A stretch of DNA of 64,000 bases, taken from the NCBI GenBank assembly GCA_021825445.1, contig JAKAHA010000002.1, positions 50,461 to 114,460 on the forward strand. Reading direction: 5' to 3'. The translations under genes and the position numbers were made by a program. Position 1 is the first letter of the stretch, and each line of letters opens with the position of its first letter. Under the pieces are notes generated by a model. It had not been told where the DNA came from and made no database searches. It saw only the letters and a program-made list of their open reading frames with translations. Origin of the DNA: a bacterium (GTDB lineage Bacteria; Patescibacteriota; Microgenomatia; UBA1406; GWC2-37-13). Shown one piece after another: positions 12,212 to 49,693 of the stretch.

Positions 12212-13357
12212 ATGATCACAATAGGAGTTGATGGTAATGAAGCCAATGTTGAAAATAAAGTAGGAGTTTCGGTCTATGCACAAAATGTTTTGAATTACTT
12301 TAATAAAAGTGCCAATCAAGATATAAGATTTGTTGTGTATTTGAAAAATAAACCTTTACTTGAACTTCCAGAGGAAAATGAATTTTTTAAATATAAAGTT
12401 ATTCAAGGAAAATTTCTCTGGTCTCAAATTTATCTACCGCTGGAACTATATCTCCATAAAAATATTAATGTTTTTTTTTCTCCCGCTCATTATCTACCTC
12501 GTTTTTGTCAAGTTCCACAAGTAGTAACAATTCATGATTTAGCTTATATTTTTTTTCCGGAAGACTTTACTAAAAAAGATTTGTGGCAACTTACTAATTG
12601 GACAAAATTTTCGATAAACAAAGCCACTAAAATAATTGCCGTCTCCAAAACAACAAAAAAGGATATTGTGAAAAATTATGGAGTTAATGAATCAAAAATC
12701 ACTGTAATATATAACGGCTTTGAAAAAACTGCCGGAGCAAAAACCTCTGCGGTTGAGGAGCGAAGCGGGAAAACCACGGAGGTTAAGTCGTTGAAATATA
12801 TTCTTTTCGTCGGCACCATTCAACCAAGAAAAAATTTAGAAGTTCTAATTGATGCTTTTAATAAATTTATCCAAACAAATAGCGACTTCAAATTAATTAT
12901 TGTTGGAAAAAAAGGTTGGCTTTATGAAAGTATTTTTGAAAAAGTGAAAGCAATGAATCTTGAAGATAAAATTATTTTTGCTGGACACGTACCAGATGAG
13001 GAATTAATTTCGTATTACAAAAATGCTTTTTGTTTTGTATTGCCTTCGCTTTACGAGGGATTTGGAATTCCAGTCCTTGAAGCGATGAGCTATGATTGTC
13101 CGACGATTGTATCAATGACTTCAAGCCTGCCTGAGGTTGGAAGCGATGCCAGTCTATATTTTGATCCAAAAAATTCTGATGATCTACTTCAAAAACTAAA
13201 TATCCTTAAAGATGATGCTAAACTTAGAAAAGAATTAATCTCAAAAGGCAGGCAAAGAATTAAAGATTTTTCTTGGGAAAAATGTGGAAAAGAAACATTA
13301 GATGTTATCAGAGGGTCTATCAGAGGGTCAGTCCCTTTAGGGACTGACCCTATATAA
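12212..13357 (+). CDS. Glycosyltransferase family 4 (mannosyltransferase-like) with repeat-derived segments
   Basis: The GT-B layout is clear: GVDGNEANVENKVGVSVYAQN at the N-terminus, VVTIHDLAYIFFPE, IIAVSKTTKKDIVKNYGV, KYILFVGTIQPRKNL, and the donor EX7E region LPSLYEGFGIPVLEAMSYDCP. Two stretches look foreign: residues about 178-191 (TSAVEERSGKTTEV), encoded by a 43-nt palindrome in the interdomain linker, and the last residues (RGSVPLGTDPI), encoded by a perfect 12-bp hairpin. Both keep the frame. The linker and tail positions would be tolerant of insertion. Confidence 0.9.
   Translation: MITIGVDGNEANVENKVGVSVYAQNVLNYFNKSANQDIRFVVYLKNKPLLELPEENEFFKYKVIQGKFLWSQIYLPLELYLHKNINVFFSPAHYLPRFCQVPQVVTIHDLAYIFFPEDFTKKDLWQLTNWTKFSINKATKIIAVSKTTKKDIVKNYGVNESKITVIYNGFEKTAGAKTSAVEERSGKTTEVKSLKYILFVGTIQPRKNLEVLIDAFNKFIQTNSDFKLIIVGKKGWLYESIFEKVKAMNLEDKIIFAGHVPDEELISYYKNAFCFVLPSLYEGFGIPVLEAMSYDCPTIVSMTSSLPEVGSDASLYFDPKNSDDLLQKLNILKDDAKLRKELISKGRQRIKDFSWEKCGKETLDVIRGSIRGSVPLGTDPI
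12742..12784. repeat. In-frame palindromic insertion in the GT4 linker
   Basis: Outer arms AACCTCTGCGGTT and AACCACGGAGGTT flank a GC-rich centre (gaggagcgaagcggga). The GC content contrasts sharply with the AT-rich gene, and it falls exactly between the two Rossmann domains. Confidence 0.75.
13324..13351. repeat. Perfect hairpin element at the 3' end of the GT4 gene
   Basis: AGGGTCAGTCCC and GGGACTGACCCT form a 12-bp perfect stem with loop TTTA. It overlaps the last codons and is preceded by a partial direct repeat (agagggtctatcagagggtc). No T-run follows, so it is a dispersed palindrome rather than a clear terminator. Confidence 0.75.
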
Positions 13358-14362: not shown

Positions 14363-14391
14363 GAATCGTTCCGCTACAATAAAAAAATCGC

Positions 14392-14420
14392 TTGAAAAGT
14401 AGTAGTAGTAGTAGTAGAAT
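14392..14420 (+). promoter_or_regulatory. Promoter with AGT trinucleotide repeat spacer
   Basis: TTGAAA at 14392 and TAGAAT at 14415 are separated by exactly 17 bp that consist only of agt repeats (agtagtagtagtagtag). Six bases separate the -10 from the ATG, so the mRNA is predicted to start at the ATG. Gain or loss of one unit would change the spacer to 20 or 14 bp. Confidence 0.7.
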
Positions 14421-14681: not shown

Positions 14682-14684
14682 TCT

Positions 14685-14732
14685 TTACTTCCCCTTCAAC
14701 GCCACCTTTAGCACCTGATCGACGTATTTTAA
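14685..14732 (-). pseudogene. Remnant of a second lon 3' end
   Basis: On the minus strand the bases encode [13 protein letters not shown] followed by TAA, identical over its last 12 residues to the end of the Lon protein at 16033. The DNA differs at several positions but every difference in the matching codons is synonymous (for example CTA/TTA, CAG/CAA, GTG/GTA). Upstream similarity fades within about 16 codons. It therefore looks like the tail of a diverged lon copy, not a recent duplication. Confidence 0.7.
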
Positions 14733-14744
14733 TAAACAAACCAA

Positions 14745-14772
14745 ATGTCTAGTTAATTAATTAACTAGACAT
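14745..14772. promoter_or_regulatory. Perfect 28-bp palindrome at the 3' end of the TrpR-like gene
   Basis: The centre is CTAGTTAATTAATTAACTAG and the symmetry extends to ATGT...ACAT over 28 bp without mismatch. It contains the stop codon of the regulator gene. It matches the upstream palindrome at 15207-15234 in 25 of 28 positions and carries CTAG half-sites like those of the E. coli trp operator. Confidence 0.7.
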
Positions 14773-15205
14773 CAATCATTTTCTGTTCTTTCTTTCTCTT
14801 TTCACGCTGCCACTCAAGATCACGGTCATGGTAATAGCCAACATGCGTAAACAAATCTGCAAATAAGTTTTCAAAAAAATGACTTATTTTTTCACTTTTT
14901 AAAAATGATTCTATGACTGTTATTAACCTCGTCTTCTTTTTATAAAACAATAAATTAAATTTTCCGACTGTGGCTCGAGATACCTTAATATGTTGTGCAA
15001 TCTCGACCTGCTCGACATTTTTTATAAGTAAATAGATGATTGCGATTCGCTTTGCAATCATTATCTGCTCAACCGGAGTCAGAATATCTTGAATGAGTTC
15101 CATAAACTCATCTTTGTCCCCAGCGTTATTAACAACCTCAAAAAATAATTGATAAAGCTTGAAAAGCTTTTCCTCATCTACAGGTCTTTTTGATATGTTT
15201 ACCAT
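14765..15205 (-). CDS. TrpR/YerC-like helix-turn-helix regulator
   Basis: The 146-aa protein contains DILTPVEQIMIAKRIAIIYLLIKNVEQVEIAQHIKVSRATVGKFN (residues about 41-86), the helical core and HTH of the Trp repressor superfamily (YerC/YecD type): LT..E...i..R..i...L......q.eIa..l.vS.aTv.r. The remainder extends TrpR by a C-terminal helical, highly charged tail (HDRDLEWQREKRKKEQK). The gene is bracketed by near-identical palindromes, one 1 bp upstream of the ATG and one overlapping the stop, suggesting autoregulation (inference). No trp biosynthesis gene is nearby. Confidence 0.85.
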   Translation of the reverse strand: MVNISKRPVDEEKLFKLYQLFFEVVNNAGDKDEFMELIQDILTPVEQIMIAKRIAIIYLLIKNVEQVEIAQHIKVSRATVGKFNLLFYKKKTRLITVIESFLKSEKISHFFENLFADLFTHVGYYHDRDLEWQREKRKKEQKMIDV

Positions 15206-15206
15206 A

Positions 15207-15234
15207 ATGTACAGTTAATTAATTAACTAGTCAT
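15207..15234. promoter_or_regulatory. Palindromic operator candidate at the TrpR-like gene start
   Basis: The core AGTTAATTAATTAACT is perfect; the outer ATG...CAT also pairs, with three mismatched positions between. It abuts the start codon of the regulator gene (15205), an ideal position to block transcription or initiation. Confidence 0.7.
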
Positions 15235-15382
15235 GTGTAATTTTAAATAATTTCATGAACCATATTGACTTTATAACTTTATAGACTTTTCTTGTCAATC
15301 GCTTATAACCTACAAAACATATAAATTGGATTATATTAAAAGGCAAAAATCATCGAATGATACTATGGTCAAATTTTCGCTT

Positions 15383-15450: not shown

Positions 15451-15479
15451 TTCGTCCAATCAAAATTGAATATTTAGAC

Positions 15480-15508
15480 TTGAAAAGAAGAAGAAGAAGT
15501 AATATTTA
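15480..15508 (+). promoter_or_regulatory. Promoter with AGA trinucleotide repeats in the spacer
   Basis: TTGAAA, 17 bp (agaagaagaagaagtaa), TATTTA, then 4 nt to the ATG at 15513. It resembles the promoter at 14392 in layout and in repeat-filled spacer. Confidence 0.5.
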
Positions 15509-16031: not shown

Positions 16032-16032
16032 T

Positions 16033-18387
16033 TTACTTCCCCTTCAACGCTACCTTTAAGACTTGATCCACATGATCTACATAATGGAACTGCAAGTCTT
16101 TAAGAACTGACTGTGGAATATCCTCAAGATCTTTTTTATTATCTTTTGGAATGATAACGGTCTTGATGCCAGAACGATGAGCGGCGATTATTTTTTCTTT
16201 AATCCCACCAATCTCCAGAGCTCGACCTCGAAGGGTTATTTCTCCAGTCATCGCAACTGTTCTAATTGTTGGGGTTTTAGTTAGCGCTGAGATCATGGCG
16301 GTTGCAATCGCAAGTCCTGCTGACGGTCCATCTTTTGGCACTGCACCTTCTGGTACATGAACGTGAATATCAATTTTGTGATAAAAATCTTCTTTGAGTC
16401 CAAACTGTTTCCATCGGGGTCGGATGTAGGAAAGAGCTGCCTGACATGATTCTTTCATGACATCGCCCAGATGACCTGTAAGGGTTAGTCCGCCTTTACC
16501 AGGCATAATGGCAACTTCAATAAACAAAATGTCTCCGCCCGCTTGAGTCCAAGCCAATCCTGTTGTGATTCCGATTGTATCGCGTGCCTCAATCATCGAA
16601 TTTGAAAATTTAAAAGGTCCGAGATATTTTGTAACATCAGTCAAACCTACATCTTTATTTTTAACTTTCTTTTCAACTATTTCTCGGGTTAATTTTCTAA
16701 ATATTGTCGAAATTTGTCGTTCTAAATCGCGAACTCCTGCCTCTCGAGTATATCTTCGAATAATTGTCTTTAAAGCTGAATCAGTAATTGAGCCTTCTTT
16801 ATTATCAAGACTGGTTGCGTCCAATTGTTTTTGGACTAAATGAGTTTTTGCAATGTTAAATTTTTCGTCCTCAGTATATCCAGGAAAATGAATTACTTCT
16901 AGTCGATCAAGTAAAGCATTTGGAATGGTATCCAACATATTGGCAGTTGTAATAAAGAAAACATCTGAAAGATCAAATGCCACTTCAAGATAATGATCTG
17001 AAAAAGCCTGGTTTTGTTCGGGGTCAAGCGCCTCAAGTAAGGCTGATGATGGATCGCCCCTGTAATCTTTTCCAATTTTATCGATTTCGTCCAACATAAA
17101 AACCGGATTTTTTGTCCCAGCTTGTTTTATCCCCTGAATCATTCGACCGGGAAGAGCTCCAACGTAAGTTCGACGATGACCGCGAATTTCGGCTTCATCT
17201 CTGATTCCACCAAGAGATATCTTGGCAAACTTTCGACCCAGTGCTCGTGCAATCGATTTACCAAGTGAAGTTTTTCCAACTCCTGGTGGTCCGACAAAAC
17301 AAAGAATCGTCGGCTGTCGACCTTTGGTTTTTTGAGTTAATTCTTTCTTTTTTCTCATCTCCATTACTGCCAAATACTCCAAAATTCTTTCCTTGATTTT
17401 TTTCAGTCCATAATGATCTTCGTCCAATATTTTTTCAGCTACTTTTATTTCAATATTATTTTCGGAAGATATCGACCAAGGCAGCTCCACCAACCAATCA
17501 AGATAAGTTCTGACGTATGAAGCTTCTGGATTAAATTGTGACATTTGTTTTAATCTTTTTAATTCTTTTTCTGCTTTTTCCTCAACTTCTTTTGGCATTT
17601 TGGCTTTTTTAATTTTTTCTCTATATTCAGAGGTATCTTTATCTTCTCCTTTTTCGCCAAGCTCTTCTTCTATCGTCTTCATCTTTTCTCGGAGTATCGA
17701 CTCTTTCATTCCGCGATCAAATTTTTTTTGAGTTTTTGAAGTAAGACTGTACTCAATTTCCAATACCTTAATTTCACGGTTTACAAAATCTACTTCCTTT
17801 TTTAGCTTTGTTTTTAGATCGATCTCCTCAAGTAACATTTGTCTTTCTTGGGGCTTCAGATCAAGAACAACTGCAATCTGATGAGCAAAGTTTATAGGAT
17901 TATCAGTGTTTAAAATATTCATTAAAAATACGAAGTCAACCGTCTTACCCAAATTAATTGCTTTTTTTATTTGAGTTGAGATATATCTGATCATCGCCTT
18001 GATCTCATCATCCTCAATCACGTTTTCTTTTATCACTTCAACTTTTGCTTCAAACCATAAATCTTGCTTGGTAAAAGAAGTAATCTTTACAATTTCGACT
18101 CCTTTAACTAGTGCATTTATTTCGCCCTTATCTCCTGGAACGGTCTTATCAATGGTTGCAAGTACCCCAACCTGATAAAGCTCATTACCTTTTGGGTCGT
18201 CAGAAGCAGGGTTTTTTTGCATCAATAAAACAACTTTTTTGTCGCGGCGCAATGCTTCGTTAATCGCAGCCACGCTCTTGGCTCTTCCAAATACTAAAAC
18301 ATTTTCAGTCCCCGGAAATACGATTCCATCGCGCACTGGTGCCACTGGATAAACGGATTGTCCTAACGCTCTAATTGAAAATACCAT
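16033..18387 (-). CDS. lon: ATP-dependent protease Lon (LonA)
   Basis: This is a cytoplasmic AAA+ serine protease. In order: LON substrate domain ([14 protein letters not shown] onward), coiled helical domain, Walker [16 protein letters not shown], Walker [14 protein letters not shown], and the protease domain with catalytic Ser in [12 protein letters not shown] and the Lys further on in [14 protein letters not shown]. With the ATG at 18387 it is 784 aa, standard for LonA. The longer ORF start at 18426 lies in the -35 box of the promoter, so it is rejected. The last codons are mirrored in the remnant at 14685. Confidence 0.97.
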
Positions 18388-26312: not shown

Positions 26313-27377
26313 TTATATGGAGTCAAATTTATTTAAACTCATTCTCGGAATCCGACCAAGTTCATCTATATTTTTTATAAACAAATCTTTTTCTGCTTTA
26401 AATCCTGCCACCACCCCAATCATTGAAGCATTGTCACCTGTTAAATATTTATAAGGTGGAAATAAAACCTCTCCATGATATTTACTAATTAGGTCACGCA
26501 TTAATTTTCTCAGTCGTAAATTAGCCACCACTCCTCCCACTACAATTAATTGATTAATTGTAGTAAGTTTAATCGCCATTTCGGTTTTTTTAATCAAAGT
26601 ATCAAAGACGGCTTCCTGGAAAGAACTTGCCAACTGTTTAATGTTTTGGTTGACATGTGCACCTTTGCCATCTTGACCGTTTAAAAAATAGTAAAAAGAT
26701 GTTTTTAATCCAGAAAAAGAGAAATTTAAATCCTTTGATTTCAACATTGGACGAGGAAAATTATGAAAGTCAATATTTCCTACTTCTTTTGCCAATCTTT
26801 CAATTACTGGTCCACCAGGATAACCCAATCCTAAAATTTTTGCCGCCTTATCCAGAGCCTCACCTGATGCATCGTCTAAAGTTGAACCAATTATTTCATA
26901 ATCTAAATGATTTTTAAACAGGACAAATTCTGTATGACCGCCAGAAATAATTAGAGCTAAATATGGAAATTTAAAATCACGTTTTGGATTGCCTTTGCTA
27001 TTTTGCACAAAAGCTGAGTAAATATGACCTTCTAGGTGATTAACGGAAATTAATTTCTTATTATATTTTTTGGCTAACTCTTTTGCTTTTTTAATCCCAA
27101 CCTCCAGTGCAACCGCCAAACCTGGTCCTTGTGTCACGGCAATTGCGTCGATATTATGTAGGGAACAAATATTTTTGTTCCCTACTTTACGCAATGTTTC
27201 ATCAACCACAAAATCAATTCTTTCTTCATGAGCTCGCTTTGCAATTGACGGCACCACCCCTCCCCATTTTTTATGAAGTAAAATTTGAGAATAAATAACA
27301 TTAGATAAAACTCGTCGTCTAGAAGTTATGGCAACAGATGTTTCGTCACAAGATGTGTCAATGGCTAAAATTCGCAT
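26313..27377 (-). CDS. tsaD: tRNA N6-adenosine threonylcarbamoyltransferase TsaD
   Basis: TsaD transfers threonylcarbamoyl to A37 of ANN-decoding tRNAs. The ASKHA fold is seen in AIDTSCDETSVAI, TQGPGLAVALEVG, the metal-binding NHLEGHIYSAF and IISGGHTEFVLF, with GSTLDDASGEALDKAAKILGLGYPGGP. At 354 aa it is slightly long. A 28-nt perfect hairpin encodes KVGNKNICSLHN in the N-terminal half. The TsaC-TsaE fusion gene is directly upstream, so three t6A components are together; TsaB is not seen in the window. Confidence 0.95.
   Translation of the reverse strand: MRILAIDTSCDETSVAITSRRRVLSNVIYSQILLHKKWGGVVPSIAKRAHEERIDFVVDETLRKVGNKNICSLHNIDAIAVTQGPGLAVALEVGIKKAKELAKKYNKKLISVNHLEGHIYSAFVQNSKGNPKRDFKFPYLALIISGGHTEFVLFKNHLDYEIIGSTLDDASGEALDKAAKILGLGYPGGPVIERLAKEVGNIDFHNFPRPMLKSKDLNFSFSGLKTSFYYFLNGQDGKGAHVNQNIKQLASSFQEAVFDTLIKKTEMAIKLTTINQLIVVGGVVANLRLRKLMRDLISKYHGEVLFPPYKYLTGDNASMIGVVAGFKAEKDLFIKNIDELGRIPRMSLNKFDSI
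27158..27185. repeat. 28-nt hairpin inside tsaD
   Basis: GTAGGGAACAAA and TTTGTTCCCTAC form a perfect 12-bp stem with a 4-nt loop. Ends GTAG/CTAC and total length 28 match the palindrome in tsaC-tsaE at 27862. Confidence 0.8.
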
Positions 27378-27484: not shown

Positions 27485-28570
27485 ATTAATAATAATTTCT
27501 CTCTCTTTTTCATTAATATACCTCATCTTCACATAAACAATTTCGCCTTTACTTTTTAGCAACTCAATAATCTCTCCCGCTTTCTCACCCCACTCAAAAC
27601 ATAAAATATTTCCAGGAATAAGAAATTTTTCTAAACCTAAATGCTTAAATTCATCTTTATTTTCTAAATTATATAAGTCAACATGAATTAACTTTGATAT
27701 TTGATCTTTGATATTTGATATTGTTTTATCGTATTCATAATATATTACATATGTAGGAGATATTATATTTTTGATTCCCAACTGTTCTCCAATCCCCTTA
27801 ACAAAAACTGTTTTCCCGACTCCCATTTCGCCTTCAATGATAAAGATTAATGGTTTTTTTCGTAGAGACAAGGCATGCCTTGTCTCTACATCTTGAAATA
27901 TTTTATTGGCGACATTTTTTGTTTCTTTAAATGTCTTTGATAAGTATGTTTTTGAATTTTTTGAAAAATCTTTATCTCCTTGACGCAAAATCTTAACATC
28001 AGACTGTGACAAATCAACGACAGTTGACGGTTTATTCTTTGGCAATATCCCAGCGTCAATTATCAGATCTATCAAATGTTTTTGTTTTTCTGATACTTGA
28101 TTAAATAACGATTCTATTGAATAATGAGGCGAACGACCAGCCAAGTTGGCAGAAGTCGCAGTGATTGGTTTCCCAAACTGTTTGACCAATACTTCGATGT
28201 ATCGATACATCGGTACTCGAATTCCAAGCGTCCCAGTTTCCGATTCCAGAAATTTATTAACTTGATGTTTCGATGGTAAGACAATTGTGTATGGTCCAGG
28301 GATTATTTGTTTGATTGCTTTTAATTGATCTTCATTGACCTTAACTAAATCTTTCAACATTTTTAAATTACAAAAAACTGAGATCGGTTTTCCAGCTGGT
28401 CGATTTTTAAATGCGATTAATTTTTTGACAGCTTCTCCGTTCTGCGCATCGCACAACAAACCATAAACAGTGTCCGTTGGAAAAATTACCAAACCACCTT
28501 CTCTCAATATTTTGACTATTTGACTTATTACGTCTTGATATTTTTCTTTATTAATTCTTACTGTTTTCAT
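27479..28570 (-). CDS. TsaC (Sua5/YrdC)-TsaE fusion protein, t6A biosynthesis
   Basis: Residues 1-205 form the YrdC/Sua5 domain that makes threonylcarbamoyl-AMP (LVIFPTDTVYGLLCDAQ, KPISVFCN, GTLGIRVP, PITATSANLAG). Residues from about 222 form TsaE, the ATPase of the TsaD complex (EGEMGVGKTVFVKGIGEQLG, ISPTYVIYYEY, HVDLYNLE, FEWGE). A 28-nt palindrome just before the P-loop (VETRHALSLRK) and a heptad array (SNIKDQISK) are translated. The ATG at 28570 is chosen; the 36-residue extension in the track runs through an octamer repeat and is not family sequence. Confidence 0.92.
   Translation of the reverse strand: MKTVRINKEKYQDVISQIVKILREGGLVIFPTDTVYGLLCDAQNGEAVKKLIAFKNRPAGKPISVFCNLKMLKDLVKVNEDQLKAIKQIIPGPYTIVLPSKHQVNKFLESETGTLGIRVPMYRYIEVLVKQFGKPITATSANLAGRSPHYSIESLFNQVSEKQKHLIDLIIDAGILPKNKPSTVVDLSQSDVKILRQGDKDFSKNSKTYLSKTFKETKNVANKIFQDVETRHALSLRKKPLIFIIEGEMGVGKTVFVKGIGEQLGIKNIISPTYVIYYEYDKTISNIKDQISKLIHVDLYNLENKDEFKHLGLEKFLIPGNILCFEWGEKAGEIIELLKSKGEIVYVKMRYINEKEREIIINN
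27694..27721. repeat. Heptad tandem repeat in the TsaE domain
   Basis: ttgatat, ttgatct, ttgatat, ttgatat in strict 7-bp period; the complement of the words seen in hisH. Confidence 0.85.
27862..27889. repeat. Perfect 28-bp palindrome in tsaC-tsaE
   Basis: GTAGAGACAAGGCA and TGCCTTGTCTCTAC are exact reverse complements with no loop. It encodes the linker just upstream of the TsaE Walker A. The GTAGAGAC...GTCTCTAC ends recur in the SNase gene (34439-34467). Confidence 0.88.
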
Positions 28571-31639: not shown

Positions 31640-33403
31640 ATGTGTGGAATTTACGGAATCATTAACGATAAAAATAATCAAGCAGCCCAAAACGTGCTTG
31701 AAGGCTTAAAAAAACTTGAATATCGAGGTTACGATTCTTGGGGTGTATCGGTTATATCGAGGGATCAAATAAAAATTGATAAGCATATTGGAAAAATTGG
31801 CGAAGCTATGACTAATTTGCCCAGTGGTTTAATAGCACTCGGTCACACTCGATGGGCTACCCACGGCGGCGTGACGGATCTAAACGCTCATCCTCATCTG
31901 GACTGTACTAAAAAAATTGCTGTCATTCATAACGGCATTGTTGAAAACTATCAAGAAATTAAGGAAGAATTAATAAAAAAAGGTCATCAATTTGTTTCAG
32001 AAACCGACACAGAGGTAATTGCCCATTTAATTGAAGAAAAAGCAAAAACAAAAACGATTAATGAGGCGGTTTTTGAAACTTTCAAAATCCTTCGAGGATC
32101 AAATGCAATTGCGGTTTTGGACTATGAATCTCAAACAATTATTGCCTGTCGAAACGGTTCCCCGCTTGTAGTTGGTTTGGGACAGGGTCAATATTTTTTA
32201 GCGTCGGATGTCCCGGCATTTTTAAAAGAAACAAACACGGTTTATTTTTTAAATGATGGGGAAGCGGTTGTTTTGAGTAAAAGCGGAGTCAAACTTTTTG
32301 ATATCGATTCAGAAAAAGAAAAAATATTGACACTACAAACTCTCGACTGGAAACTTGAAGATGCTGAAAAAAATGGTTATCCTCATTTTTTGTTAAAAGA
32401 AATTTACGAACAGTTAAAAACTATTCCAAAAACAACTTCTATAAACGAAAAAGAAATAAATAAATTGACAGAAAAAATTAAAGGTGGATATAAAATTATA
32501 CTGACTGGATGCGGAACTGCCTCCTACTGTGCACTTGCTACTAAATATTTTTTTGCAACTCAAGGCGTGGAATCTCAAGCTATTTCATCTTATGAATTTA
32601 TGCCTTTTTCAAAGTTTATTGATAAAAAAACCTTAGTTTTTGCAATCTCTCAATCTGGAGAAACAGCCGATACTTTAATTGCCGTGAAAGAAGCAAAAAA
32701 AAGAGGGGCAGAAATTGTGGCAGTTATAAACGCCAGAGGATCAACTTTAGAGCGACTTGCTGATACAGTTTTATCAGTTGGTGCCGGACCAGAAATTGCC
32801 GTCGTCTCAACCAAAGCTTTTACTTCCCAGCTGTCAACGCTTTACTTACTTTCGACAGCTGTCGCGGATAAGTTTGAGGAAGGAAAAAATAAAATTAATA
32901 AATTGGGTACGGTATTGACAAACTTACTTAATCCCGTATTAATTAATCGATTAATCGATACAGCAAAAAATCTGATGAATGAAGAACATATGTATTTGAT
33001 TGGTAAACATCTTAACTATCCTGCAACTTTAGAGTTTGCTTTAAAAATTAAAGAAACAAGTTATATTCACGCCGAGCCATTTGCCGCCGGAGAACTAAAA
33101 CACGGAGTAATTACTTTAATCCAAAAAGGTACTCCTTGTTTTGTTTTGGCGTCTCAGGACGAAGTCAAAGACGAAGTGCTTTCGAGTGCCTCAGAAATCA
33201 AAGCTCGTGGAGGACTCATCATTGGCGTCGCTCCATTTGAATCAAATGAATTTGATGTTTTGATAAAGACTCCCGATCTTGGAAGTCTGACAATTTTTGC
33301 CAATATTATTGTTGGACAACTGCTTGGATACTACCTTGGCGTCGGTCGTGGAGCTGACCCCGATAAACCCAGAAACTTAGCCAAAAGCGTGACGGTGAAG
33401 TAA
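31640..33403 (+). CDS. glmS: Glutamine--fructose-6-phosphate aminotransferase (isomerizing)
   Basis: GlmS makes glucosamine-6-phosphate for cell-wall precursors. Residue 2 is the glutaminase Cys (MCGIYGI), followed by LEYRGYDSWGV and ALGHTRWATHGGV; two SIS domains follow (ILTGCGTASYCAL, FAISQSGETADTL, LIGKHLNYPATLEFALKIKETSYIHAE) and the C-terminus PRNLAKSVTVK is diagnostic. 587 aa is slightly shorter than E. coli (609). Its product feeds the peptidoglycan genes elsewhere in the window. Confidence 0.97.
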   Translation: MCGIYGIINDKNNQAAQNVLEGLKKLEYRGYDSWGVSVISRDQIKIDKHIGKIGEAMTNLPSGLIALGHTRWATHGGVTDLNAHPHLDCTKKIAVIHNGIVENYQEIKEELIKKGHQFVSETDTEVIAHLIEEKAKTKTINEAVFETFKILRGSNAIAVLDYESQTIIACRNGSPLVVGLGQGQYFLASDVPAFLKETNTVYFLNDGEAVVLSKSGVKLFDIDSEKEKILTLQTLDWKLEDAEKNGYPHFLLKEIYEQLKTIPKTTSINEKEINKLTEKIKGGYKIILTGCGTASYCALATKYFFATQGVESQAISSYEFMPFSKFIDKKTLVFAISQSGETADTLIAVKEAKKRGAEIVAVINARGSTLERLADTVLSVGAGPEIAVVSTKAFTSQLSTLYLLSTAVADKFEEGKNKINKLGTVLTNLLNPVLINRLIDTAKNLMNEEHMYLIGKHLNYPATLEFALKIKETSYIHAEPFAAGELKHGVITLIQKGTPCFVLASQDEVKDEVLSSASEIKARGGLIIGVAPFESNEFDVLIKTPDLGSLTIFANIIVGQLLGYYLGVGRGADPDKPRNLAKSVTVK

Positions 33404-34206: not shown

Positions 34207-34282
34207 GCGGCGCTGAAAAATATGCTACACCGTAACATTAGGGTGTAACAATTTCCATAATAGTTCATCAAATGATTATTTC

Positions 34283-47362: not shown

Positions 47363-49693
47363 ATGATTTGGGCAGATAGAGAAGCAAAAAGACTTAAAGA
47401 AAGAAACTTACCCCTTGAATGGGCTGATGACATGAAAACCCCATCAGGGCGCGTTCACGTCGGCTCTCTTCGAGGTGTCATTGTTCACGACCTGATTCAC
47501 AAAGCCCTTAAAAATATTGGCGTAAATACCAAGTTTTCTTATGTCTTCAATAATATGGATCCGATGGATGGAATGCCATCTTACTTGGACGCAAATAAAT
47601 GGGGAAAATATATGGGAATGCCTTTATATAAAATTCCTTCTCCTGAACCGGGATTCAAGTCTTTTGCCGATTATTTTGCTTCAGAATTTATTGAAGTTTT
47701 TAATTCTATAAACTGTAAACCACAAATTATTTGGTCACACGAACTTTACAGATCAGGAAAAATGAATGAAACAATTCGTTTAATATTAGATAAAGCCGAT
47801 ACCGTTCGCGACGTCTACAAAAAAGTTGTCAAAAAAGATCGTCCTCCAACTTGGTTTCCGTATTCTCCAATTTGTGAAAAATGTGGAAAGATCGGAACAA
47901 CCAGTGTTTACAAATGGGATGGAAAATATGTCCACTATCGTTGTGAGCCAAAAATGGTTGAATGGGCCACAGGGTGTGGATACGAAGGAAAAGTTGAGCC
48001 AATAAATGAAAATGGCAAATTGGTTTGGAAATTGGATTGGCCCGCTCATTGGAAAGTAATTGGAGTAACAATTGAATCGTCCGGTAAAGATCACATGTCC
48101 TCAGGTGGATCTTATGATATGGGAATTCATTTCTGTAAGGAAGTATTGGGTACTGTTGCGCCGGACGCCCTTGGTGGCTATGAATGGTTTACAATCGGTG
48201 GCAAAAAAATGTCGTCATCAAAGGGAATTGGTTCTTCCGCTTACGAAGTTTCTCAAATCTTACCCCCAGAACTTTTACGTTTTTTGCTTGTTCGAACGCC
48301 AATTAAGACTCATCTTGATTTTGATCCGGTTGGAGATACGATTCCTAATTTGTTTGATGACTATGATCGTTGCTTGAATTCTTATTATTTAAAATTAGAA
48401 AACAATTTACCAAAAGATAAAGCCGGAGAGGTTGCAGATGATCAAGCCAGAATAATAGAACTTTCAGAAGTAAAACCTTTACCTAAAACTAGACAGTATA
48501 TCCCCAGGTTTAGAACGATTGCCAATTTATTAAAAACAAAAAAAGAAGATATAAATAAATTTTTTGAGACACAAAAAAGATCTTCTCTAACAAATGATGA
48601 AATCAAAATTCTTGATGAACGAATAAAATTCGCAAAAATTTATTTGGAAAAATACAGCCAAGATAAAAATTTGAGTATAGGGGAAAAAATATTTTCCCCA
48701 TCTGAATTGCAAAAAAACTTCTTACTTCAATCGTTTAATCGATTGAAATCTTTGATCAATAAAGATAACAAAGACGAGATTCAACAGACTATTTTTGAGT
48801 GTATTAAAACAACTGGAATAAAACCTAAAGATGCTTTTGAAGCTATTTATCAAACACTGACAGGGAAGCCATTTGGACCAAAAATTGGAGAATTAATTTT
48901 AGACATTGGCTTTGGTAAATCTTTATCGATGTTAAAAGGAAGTAATCAAGATATTGTCAAACAAACAACAAATAAATATACTTATCCCGAGCTTACTGAC
49001 AAAAAAATATTTTTCATCGACTCGACAGTTGCACAAAAATACCCGTCAATCAATATCGGAATTGCTGTTATTAAAAACGTTAATATTAAAAAATCTGATC
49101 CGCGTCTACTTGAAGAAGTCGACCAATTTATTAAATCACAATCAAATTTATCTAATGAAATAATTAGCAGCTATCCTGAAATTCAAACTTACCGAAAACT
49201 TTATAAAGAAATGGGGTTAGATTGGCACTCAAAAAGACCGTCTCCCGAAGCACTACTTCGAAGAATTGCTACCGGTAAAGGACTTTACAACATCAATACA
49301 TGTGTTGATGCATACAATTTAATTGTTATGAAACATCACGTTTCAATTGGAGCATTTGATTACGATAAATTAAGATTCCCAACATTATTAAGATTTCCAA
49401 AAAATAACGAAGAGATATTGCTTCTTGGAGATAAAGTTCCGACCAAATACAAAACAATTGACTTAGCTTATTTTGATCAGGCAGGCGGATATAATATTTA
49501 TTTTAATTATCGCGACGCACAAAGAACCGCTGTAACAGAACAAACAAAAGATATAATTTTGAATATTGATGGAATTTATGATGTCACTAGAGCTCAAGTT
49601 GAACGATCCTTGAAAGAATCAATTGATATTATTACCAAATACTGCGGCGGCACCGTCGAGTTTGCAGGAATCGTTTCAGCCGCGCAAATTTAA
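47363..49693 (+). CDS. lysS: Class I lysyl-tRNA synthetase with C-terminal B3/B4 domain
   Basis: The N-terminal part is class I LysRS: HIGH-like PSGRVHVGSLRG, zinc-like ICEKCGKIGTTSVYKWDGKYVHYRCE and KMSKS-like KKMSSSKG (residues about 30-300). A helical anticodon part follows. From about residue 545 a B3/B4 fold appears: GIAVIKNVNIKKSDPRLLEEVDQFI, YRKLYKEMGLDWHSKRPSPEALLRRIATGKGLYNINTCVDAYNLIVMKHHVSIGAFDYDKL, the fold seen in PheRS-beta and in free B3/B4 proteins. 776 aa against about 520 for class I LysRS alone. The added domain may edit or bind tRNA (inference). Confidence 0.93.
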   Translation: MIWADREAKRLKERNLPLEWADDMKTPSGRVHVGSLRGVIVHDLIHKALKNIGVNTKFSYVFNNMDPMDGMPSYLDANKWGKYMGMPLYKIPSPEPGFKSFADYFASEFIEVFNSINCKPQIIWSHELYRSGKMNETIRLILDKADTVRDVYKKVVKKDRPPTWFPYSPICEKCGKIGTTSVYKWDGKYVHYRCEPKMVEWATGCGYEGKVEPINENGKLVWKLDWPAHWKVIGVTIESSGKDHMSSGGSYDMGIHFCKEVLGTVAPDALGGYEWFTIGGKKMSSSKGIGSSAYEVSQILPPELLRFLLVRTPIKTHLDFDPVGDTIPNLFDDYDRCLNSYYLKLENNLPKDKAGEVADDQARIIELSEVKPLPKTRQYIPRFRTIANLLKTKKEDINKFFETQKRSSLTNDEIKILDERIKFAKIYLEKYSQDKNLSIGEKIFSPSELQKNFLLQSFNRLKSLINKDNKDEIQQTIFECIKTTGIKPKDAFEAIYQTLTGKPFGPKIGELILDIGFGKSLSMLKGSNQDIVKQTTNKYTYPELTDKKIFFIDSTVAQKYPSINIGIAVIKNVNIKKSDPRLLEEVDQFIKSQSNLSNEIISSYPEIQTYRKLYKEMGLDWHSKRPSPEALLRRIATGKGLYNINTCVDAYNLIVMKHHVSIGAFDYDKLRFPTLLRFPKNNEEILLLGDKVPTKYKTIDLAYFDQAGGYNIYFNYRDAQRTAVTEQTKDIILNIDGIYDVTRAQVERSLKESIDIITKYCGGTVEFAGIVSAAQI

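Follow-up and report, generated by a model that had tools for sequence, protein, structure and literature searches.

In Patescibacteria, members of a family of TrpR-like proteins are encoded between two copies of a palindrome that is private to each paralogue; further copies are dispersed over a few related genomes, lie largely within genes and have evolved by base substitution. We propose, with a probability of about 65% and on the basis of sequence comparisons, that each of these TrpR-fold proteins binds its own palindrome, represses its own gene and acts at the dispersed sites, which would have been born by substitution. The family is described here from one of its genes, located within a stretch of 64,000 nucleotides (the window) of genome G000, a draft of 1.02 Mb in 33 contigs.

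A TrpR-like gene between two palindromes

The gene and the palindromes at its two ends, which are of one type (type A), have the following positions in the window:

14745-14772: downstream palindrome (D site), type A, 14/14 pairs, ATGTCTAGTTAATTAATTAACTAGACAT
14765-15205, minus strand: TrpR-like gene, 146 amino acids, open reading frame with Pfam match
15207-15234: upstream palindrome (U site), type A, proposed operator, 1 base from the ATG at 15205

Residues 18-82 of the protein match the Pfam family Trp_repressor (PF01371) with 44 bits (cut-off 27), in agreement with the first-pass annotation of this DNA, which had called the protein a TrpR-like regulator. Scores remain below the NCBIfam cut-offs for both the TrpR equivalog (TIGR01321; 28.3 versus 67.25 bits) and YerC/YecD (TIGR02531; 15.5 versus 42.2 bits). 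By these profile scores, the protein belongs to the Trp repressor superfamily (gathering cut-off of PF01371) and lies outside TrpR and YerC. No transposase, recombinase or nuclease family of the Pfam and NCBIfam profiles matched above cut-off, and the Y1_Tnp profile gave no match in the protein; G000 has separate Y1 genes. The closest named relative is from a Candidatus Roizmanbacteria genome (81% identity). The TrpR-like core comprises approximately residues 18-90 and is followed by a C-terminal tail that is conserved, lies outside the Pfam match and reads PGxxGxxWxxAWxxKxxxxRKKxxGI in most relatives. Clear sequence relatives in the PDB are exclusively TrpR-like proteins: the sequence profile found 3frw (E 1.5e-5), 3kor (3.6e-4) and 3g1c (1.6e-3). 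With a pLDDT of 64, the AlphaFold model is moderately confident. TrpR chains are its top matches in Foldseek (E about 0.03), and no match reached E 0.001; a TrpR fold is thus supported by the sequence profile and, for the predicted model, weakly by Foldseek.

The D site is perfect over 28 bp and the TAG of ATGTCTAGTTAATTAATTAACTAGACAT is the stop codon of the gene; as RNA, the site is predicted to fold into a hairpin like that of a terminator (-15.2 kcal/mol, z -4.9). The U site is identical to the D site at 25/28 positions and is imperfect as a palindrome, with 10/13 pairs over the central 26 bases. The perfect palindrome over the stop codon, the 25/28 copy abutting the start codon and the CTAG/TTAA half-sites in both palindromes had all been described in the first-pass annotation and were found as described. 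Within the 64-kb window, the 16-bp core is present in exact form at the U and D sites only. Palindromes with at least 12/13 pairs number five in the window, with 0.1 expected from mononucleotide shuffles: the window palindromes are therefore not chance products, and the shuffles also rule out an operator pair or tandem that arose by chance. Three other near-perfect palindromes in the window (13325-13350, 27159-27184 and 27863-27888) differ in kind and all lie within open reading frames; two of these start with TAG(G/A)GA, like the GTAG-tagged REP repeats.

The E. coli trp operator has CTAG half-sites, and a likeness to this operator had been suggested for the window palindromes. The likeness is superficial: the two CTAG of the window palindrome are separated by TTAATTAATTAA, and among the 48 family copies with matched palindromes (see below) an E. 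coli-type CTAG half-site is present in two, the window gene and its nearest relative. Three relatives (L039, L040 and L041) are short TrpR-like proteins of 85-104 amino acids; L039 and L040 have an ACTAG-containing sequence just upstream (for example ATACTAGTGTACTAGTATACTAGTAT in L040) that is nearer to the E. coli trp operator than is the palindrome of the window.

Paired palindromes as a trait of the family

Relatives of the protein (E ≤ 0.001) are present in 26 of 57 genomes that cover the levels from genus to class, with a maximum of eight per genome, a count that takes in some short TrpR-like proteins. When 379 genomes drawn from the whole phylum were searched with an alignment profile (E ≤ 1e-10), 47 had members. 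We collected 69 family copies (L046 and L047 were dropped as duplicates of L017 and L022) and tested the 65 that have at least 120 amino acids and sufficient flank for matched pairs, defined as upstream and downstream palindromes that agree in at least 20/26 bases. Such a pair was found in 48/65 copies and in none of 325 shuffled flanks. When the upstream palindrome of one copy was compared with the downstream palindromes of others, 4.6% of 3604 comparisons reached at least 20/26, as expected from the presence of orthologues among the compared copies. In the phylum-wide sample, 22 of 29 loci have a matched pair, many with 26/26 identical bases; nine of these loci came from the profile search and 20 were hand-picked from its matches, mostly from multi-copy genomes. 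L302 of this sample and L036 of the 65 are one and the same gene.

The sequence of the palindrome varies between paralogues, and copies with more similar proteins tend to have more similar palindromes (Mantel r 0.27, reached in 0/2000 permutations). The recognition-helix region has a partial correlation of 0.22 with the palindrome, given the N- and C-terminal regions; the value for the first helix of the helix-turn-helix is -0.04. Judged by sequence, the palindromes are private to each paralogue and co-vary with the protein. In several clades the palindrome covers the -10 region. Autoregulation via cognate sites at the two ends, as proposed in the first-pass annotation, is the best reading of these copy-specific, co-varying palindromes and of their position over the -10 region.

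The two palindromes of a pair show no preferred relative orientation in the genus set (14 direct, 8 inverted, 26 ties); for the 26/26 pairs of the phylum sample, the way the test is built makes them direct. As a test of DNA looping, helical phasing of the site spacing gave an uncorrected p of about 0.03 for 10.5 bp, and different periods such as 12.0 bp (0.02) fit just as well.

Dispersed sites within genes

G000 has five long paralogues, and the palindromes of three of them (types A, B and C) have 6, 2 and 17 solo sites, respectively, in this genome. Full-length type patterns were counted in 20 genomes of the genus; the reversed control was 0 in all. Type A occurs eight times in G000 (two at the gene, six solo), four times each in G016 and G007, twice in G008, once in G009 and not in the other 15 genomes. 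Type B has six copies in G000 (four at its gene, two solo), 13 in G014, 11 in G008, eight in G016, five each in G002 and G015, four in G007 and one in G009, and is absent from the other 12 genomes. For type C, the numbers are 19 in G000 (two at its gene, 17 solo), 10 in G014, four each in G008 and G016, one in G006 and zero in the other 15. The solo sites are thus a dispersed set confined to a few related genomes and not a random repeat.

A cognate gene was found in 2/5 genomes with type A sites and in 5/8 genomes with type B sites, one of these genes (L044 of G015) being broken by two TGA; in 4/5 genomes with type C sites a gene lies between two palindromes of this type, and the fifth, G006, has a syntenic relative (L023) with a different palindrome. 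No cognate gene was found for type A in G007, G008 and G009 and for type B in G002, G007 and G009, in assemblies that are 80 to 91% complete. In the complete genome G190 a single solo site was found, which we count against our reading. The first-pass annotation had suggested a genome-wide search for the palindrome as a way to a regulon: dispersed sites were indeed found, and a trp regulon was not supported. Taken literally, the palindrome does occur at unrelated sites with no regulator gene, the very observation that this annotation had named as speaking against its interpretation.

In the type C group of G014 (L247), G008 (L227) and G016 (L220), a third palindrome lies 5 bp past the stop codon of the neighbouring gene, an open reading frame of 225 or 270 amino acids, so that copies of one site enclose a pair of neighbouring genes. 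Four loci (L199, L204, L206 and L214) have tandem double type B sites, 3 bp apart and without a family gene, that resemble those found at either end of type B genes.

In G000, 16/17 solo type C sites are within coding sequence and the remaining one spans the stop codon of a gene that, by eye, resembles metallo-beta-lactamase genes. Across all loci that were fetched, the sites within open reading frames of at least 100 amino acids are 8/15 for type A, 18/32 for type B and 24/29 for type C, the 29 including two sites beside or behind the family gene in L247. Of the genes that contain or adjoin sites, lysS, glmS, tsaD, argS, murD, aroB and aroA were confirmed by Pfam; other names were assigned by eye. 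Four further sites are found in the window:

26539-26564: palindrome of the L052/L055 type, in tsaD, codon 271
32940-32965: palindromic site like that of relative L045, in glmS, codon 433
34224-34249: solo site, type of the L068 paralogue, differs from the search pattern by 1 mismatch
48724-48749: solo type C palindrome, in the class I lysyl-tRNA synthetase gene lysS, codon 453, peptide LQSFNRLK

The cognate paralogue of the lysS site (L070) is encoded elsewhere in G000; in two relatives, L205 and L213, the site in glmS is of type B, and that of L205 occupies the codon of the window site. The reading frame is always open at sites within genes, and bases that would make a stop are changed: for type A, examples are argS, murD and the murC-ddl-like genes, and for type C, the sites read in frame 0. 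All eight type A sites in coding sequence are free of a stop; most intergenic ones keep the TAA.

Ten G000 sites were aligned with orthologous DNA from the other genomes of the genus, with 68 alignable cases among up to 190 gene-genome combinations. Orthologous positions are palindromic (at least 10/13 pairs) in 25/68 cases versus 22/3400 for random places. Of these 25, 14 match (at least 20/26) a palindrome that belongs to a family gene of that genome; for the other 11, which we count against our reading, no match to a family copy of the same genome was found, and some of them fit a family gene elsewhere in the genus. There is no length change at the aligned sites of argS, lysS, queA, miaA and the nadD-like gene, and this lack of indels rules out that palindromes were inserted at these aligned positions. 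Where orthologues can be aligned, the dispersed sites arise and change by base substitution, not by insertion. The same codon positions often hold a palindrome of a different type in related species. Examples are lysS (type C in G000 and G014, type B in G002), murD (type C in G000; in G002, the type of that genome's own gene L024), the nadD-like gene (type C in G000, a ACTTCATTATATTAATATAATGAAGT palindrome in G008 and G015) and the aroB-aroA junction (type A in G000, type B in G014). Solo sites of type C contain 41.7 bits, with about 16 needed to mark 17 places. No other observation hints as strongly at a drive or copying process as this excess does; it is larger than expected from simple operator evolution and is another point against our reading.

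The site at the aroB-aroA junction, its type B counterpart in G014 and a type A site at the 3' end of an aroD-like gene of G009 (named by eye) are, together with the TrpR fold, what would be expected of a genuine Trp repressor with a classical regulon of aromatic amino acid biosynthesis genes. Such a repressor is very improbable, as most solo sites are within coding sequences of unrelated genes, the aroB-aroA site overlaps a stop codon inside an apparent operon and CTAG is missing from most palindromes.

A mobile single-gene element similar to RAYT/REP, with the palindromes as its ends and the solo sites as remnants or non-autonomous copies, would fit the two flanking palindromes that co-vary with the protein, the dispersed cognate palindromes and the patchy distribution. 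It would also fit the lon locus: G000 and G016 have the TrpR-like gene there, in others lon directly adjoins the next conserved gene, and the segment is thus gained or lost at times. Yet no segment boundary was seen at the palindromes of this locus, there is no insertion at solo sites, and both the lack of a preferred end orientation and the lack of a transposase, recombinase or nuclease match disagree with such an element. Of the 48 genus copies, 38 share the flank of the same side with a copy from a different genome; within one genome, identity between copies reaches 0.87 at most. Active transposition was rejected in view of syntenic orthologues and the absence of near-identical copies within a genome; a fixed end orientation of the transposon kind was likewise rejected for the genus set, and viral carriage was rejected because a viral contig collection contained no relative. 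The mobile single-gene cassette, the second option of the first-pass annotation, is therefore disfavoured, and we regard a mobile element of any such kind as improbable.

The 3' side of lon looks like a hotspot for small genes. The last 40 nucleotides of lon (14684-14723) are repeated with 88% identity beyond the TrpR-like gene (16032-16071), and a remnant of the lon end is also found behind the TrpR-like gene of G016. Two small unrelated open reading frames share the leader CTTGAAAAG followed by GAA/GTA repeats (14391-14416 and 15479-15504). In G017 (L098), the gene downstream of lon is Y1-transposase-like (by eye) and has the promoter element that is described in the next section.

Expression context, possible function and known systems

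Upstream of the U site, the window gene has a promoter element and a putative -10 hexamer:

15293-15317, minus strand: promoter element TTTTGTAGGTTATAAGCGATTGACA, that is TTTTGTAGGTTATAAGCG-A-TTGACA, with the -35-like TTGACA at its end
15270-15275, minus strand: putative -10 hexamer TATAAA, 17 nucleotides after TTGACA, read by eye

TATAAA is not listed by the consensus -10 scan, which demands a final T. The element, as TTTTGTAGGTTATAAGCG-N-TTGACA, has 22 copies in G000 (loci L117-L138; control 0) and is present upstream of 46/69 family copies. In G000 it precedes five family genes (L121, L124, L128, L134 and L137), recA, a ComEA-like gene (SLBB+HHH), three Y1-transposase-like genes, three 23S-IVP-like genes, one Gp49-like toxin gene, two PaaX-like genes and others, some of these names being assigned by eye. 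In relatives the element looks palindromic (TAGACTATAGTCTA). LexA is encoded in the genome and the region upstream of its own gene has a GTGAACAACTGTTCAC box, not the promoter element; the shared element is thus probably not part of a LexA regulon, and LexA/SOS control was rejected. From the gene content, it is possible that the element marks a competence-like gene set of the genus.

That the TrpR-like gene shares its element with recA and the ComEA-like gene leads to the boldest reading, marks for DNA uptake or recombination. TrpR-fold proteins, co-expressed with competence genes, would read private marks driven to conserved positions in core genes and favour incoming DNA that bears their own palindrome, as dialects of self-DNA; the sites would spread by molecular drive in permissive places, genes included, and a reader gene between two sites would promote its own transfer. 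We consider such dialects unlikely, even with the element upstream of two thirds of the family and also before recA, the ComEA-like gene and the Y1 transposases. Several dialects would coexist within one genome, and the protein looks like a cytoplasmic DNA-binding protein, whereas DNA uptake receptors are surface pilins. The numbers differ as well: the counted types have 1 to 17 solo sites and DNA uptake sequences are present in thousands of copies in Neisseriaceae (excerpts of PMC3630211). What does agree with the excerpted reports on DNA uptake sequences (PMC1939737, PMC3630211) is the origin by substitution, the location in coding sequence in preferred frames and the existence of dialects.

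Our preferred reading is that of proteins that would bind dispersed sites and repress their own gene. According to this model, the Patescibacteria have a multi-paralogue family of TrpR-fold proteins with one private palindromic recognition sequence per paralogue. The U copy at the promoter or start codon would be the operator for autorepression, and the D copy at the stop codon may be a second operator for looping or a hairpin terminator. The protein would also bind the further copies, which for each counted type amount to 1 to 17 solo sites and are mostly within coding sequences, and these dispersed sites would serve a chromosome-wide role. The proteins would most likely act as site-specific architectural or roadblock proteins and not as regulators of a classical promoter regulon.

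We found no description of this gene-plus-site system in the open-licence full-text literature, and a large group of uncultured bacteria would gain one. It would be a novel system for organising the chromosome or else a mark of self-DNA of a kind not described before. With 26-bp palindromes in core genes, shared codons and a type that switches between species, it would offer a readable record of the co-evolution of specificity and site, useful for the protein-DNA recognition code.

Several known systems share some of these features. ParB/parS, MatP/matS and SlmA are dedicated binding proteins with few dispersed palindromic sites, some of them in genes; the proteins described here differ by their fold, many paralogues per genome, patchy distribution and sites that bracket the gene. 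TrpR (PF01371) and YerC/YecD share the fold, the helix-turn-helix and, as proposed here, an operator at the own promoter. The differences are an extra C-terminal tail, scores below the NCBIfam cut-offs, private palindromes that mostly lack CTAG, two sites per gene and sites within coding sequence. Rickettsia palindromic elements are longer and inserted or in tandem; to judge from the titles of the reports, these elements and the palindromic amphipathic repeat coding sequences are similar in being palindromic DNA within reading frames that encodes an amphipathic peptide, whereas the sites described here are 26-28 bp and cause no length change.

RAYT-REP, as described in excerpts of PMC2817692, consists of a small gene between two palindromes that co-evolve with the protein, and the cognate palindromes are dispersed and commoner where the gene is present. 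On the basis of these excerpts, the likeness lies in the gene flanked by two cognate palindromes (48/65 copies here) and in the dispersed cognates. Unlike RAYT-REP, the family has a TrpR fold and no Y1/HUH transposase domain, its sites are few, mostly in coding sequence and of several private types per genome, and aligned positions show substitution rather than insertion. DNA uptake sequences are, in the excerpted reports (PMC3630211, PMC1939737), short marks dispersed in coding sequence that evolve by point mutation and have related dialects in related species. To the extent of these excerpts, the likeness is in the dispersed coding-sequence marks and in a gene that shares its promoter element with recA and a ComEA-like gene; the sites described here differ in being palindromic, in tens and not thousands of copies, and in having a candidate intracellular binding protein encoded beside the mark. 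Thus, the architecture is most like RAYT-REP and the evolution of the sites is most like that of DNA uptake sequences, but the family lacks a defining feature of each, the Y1 domain of the former and the large number of sites of the latter.
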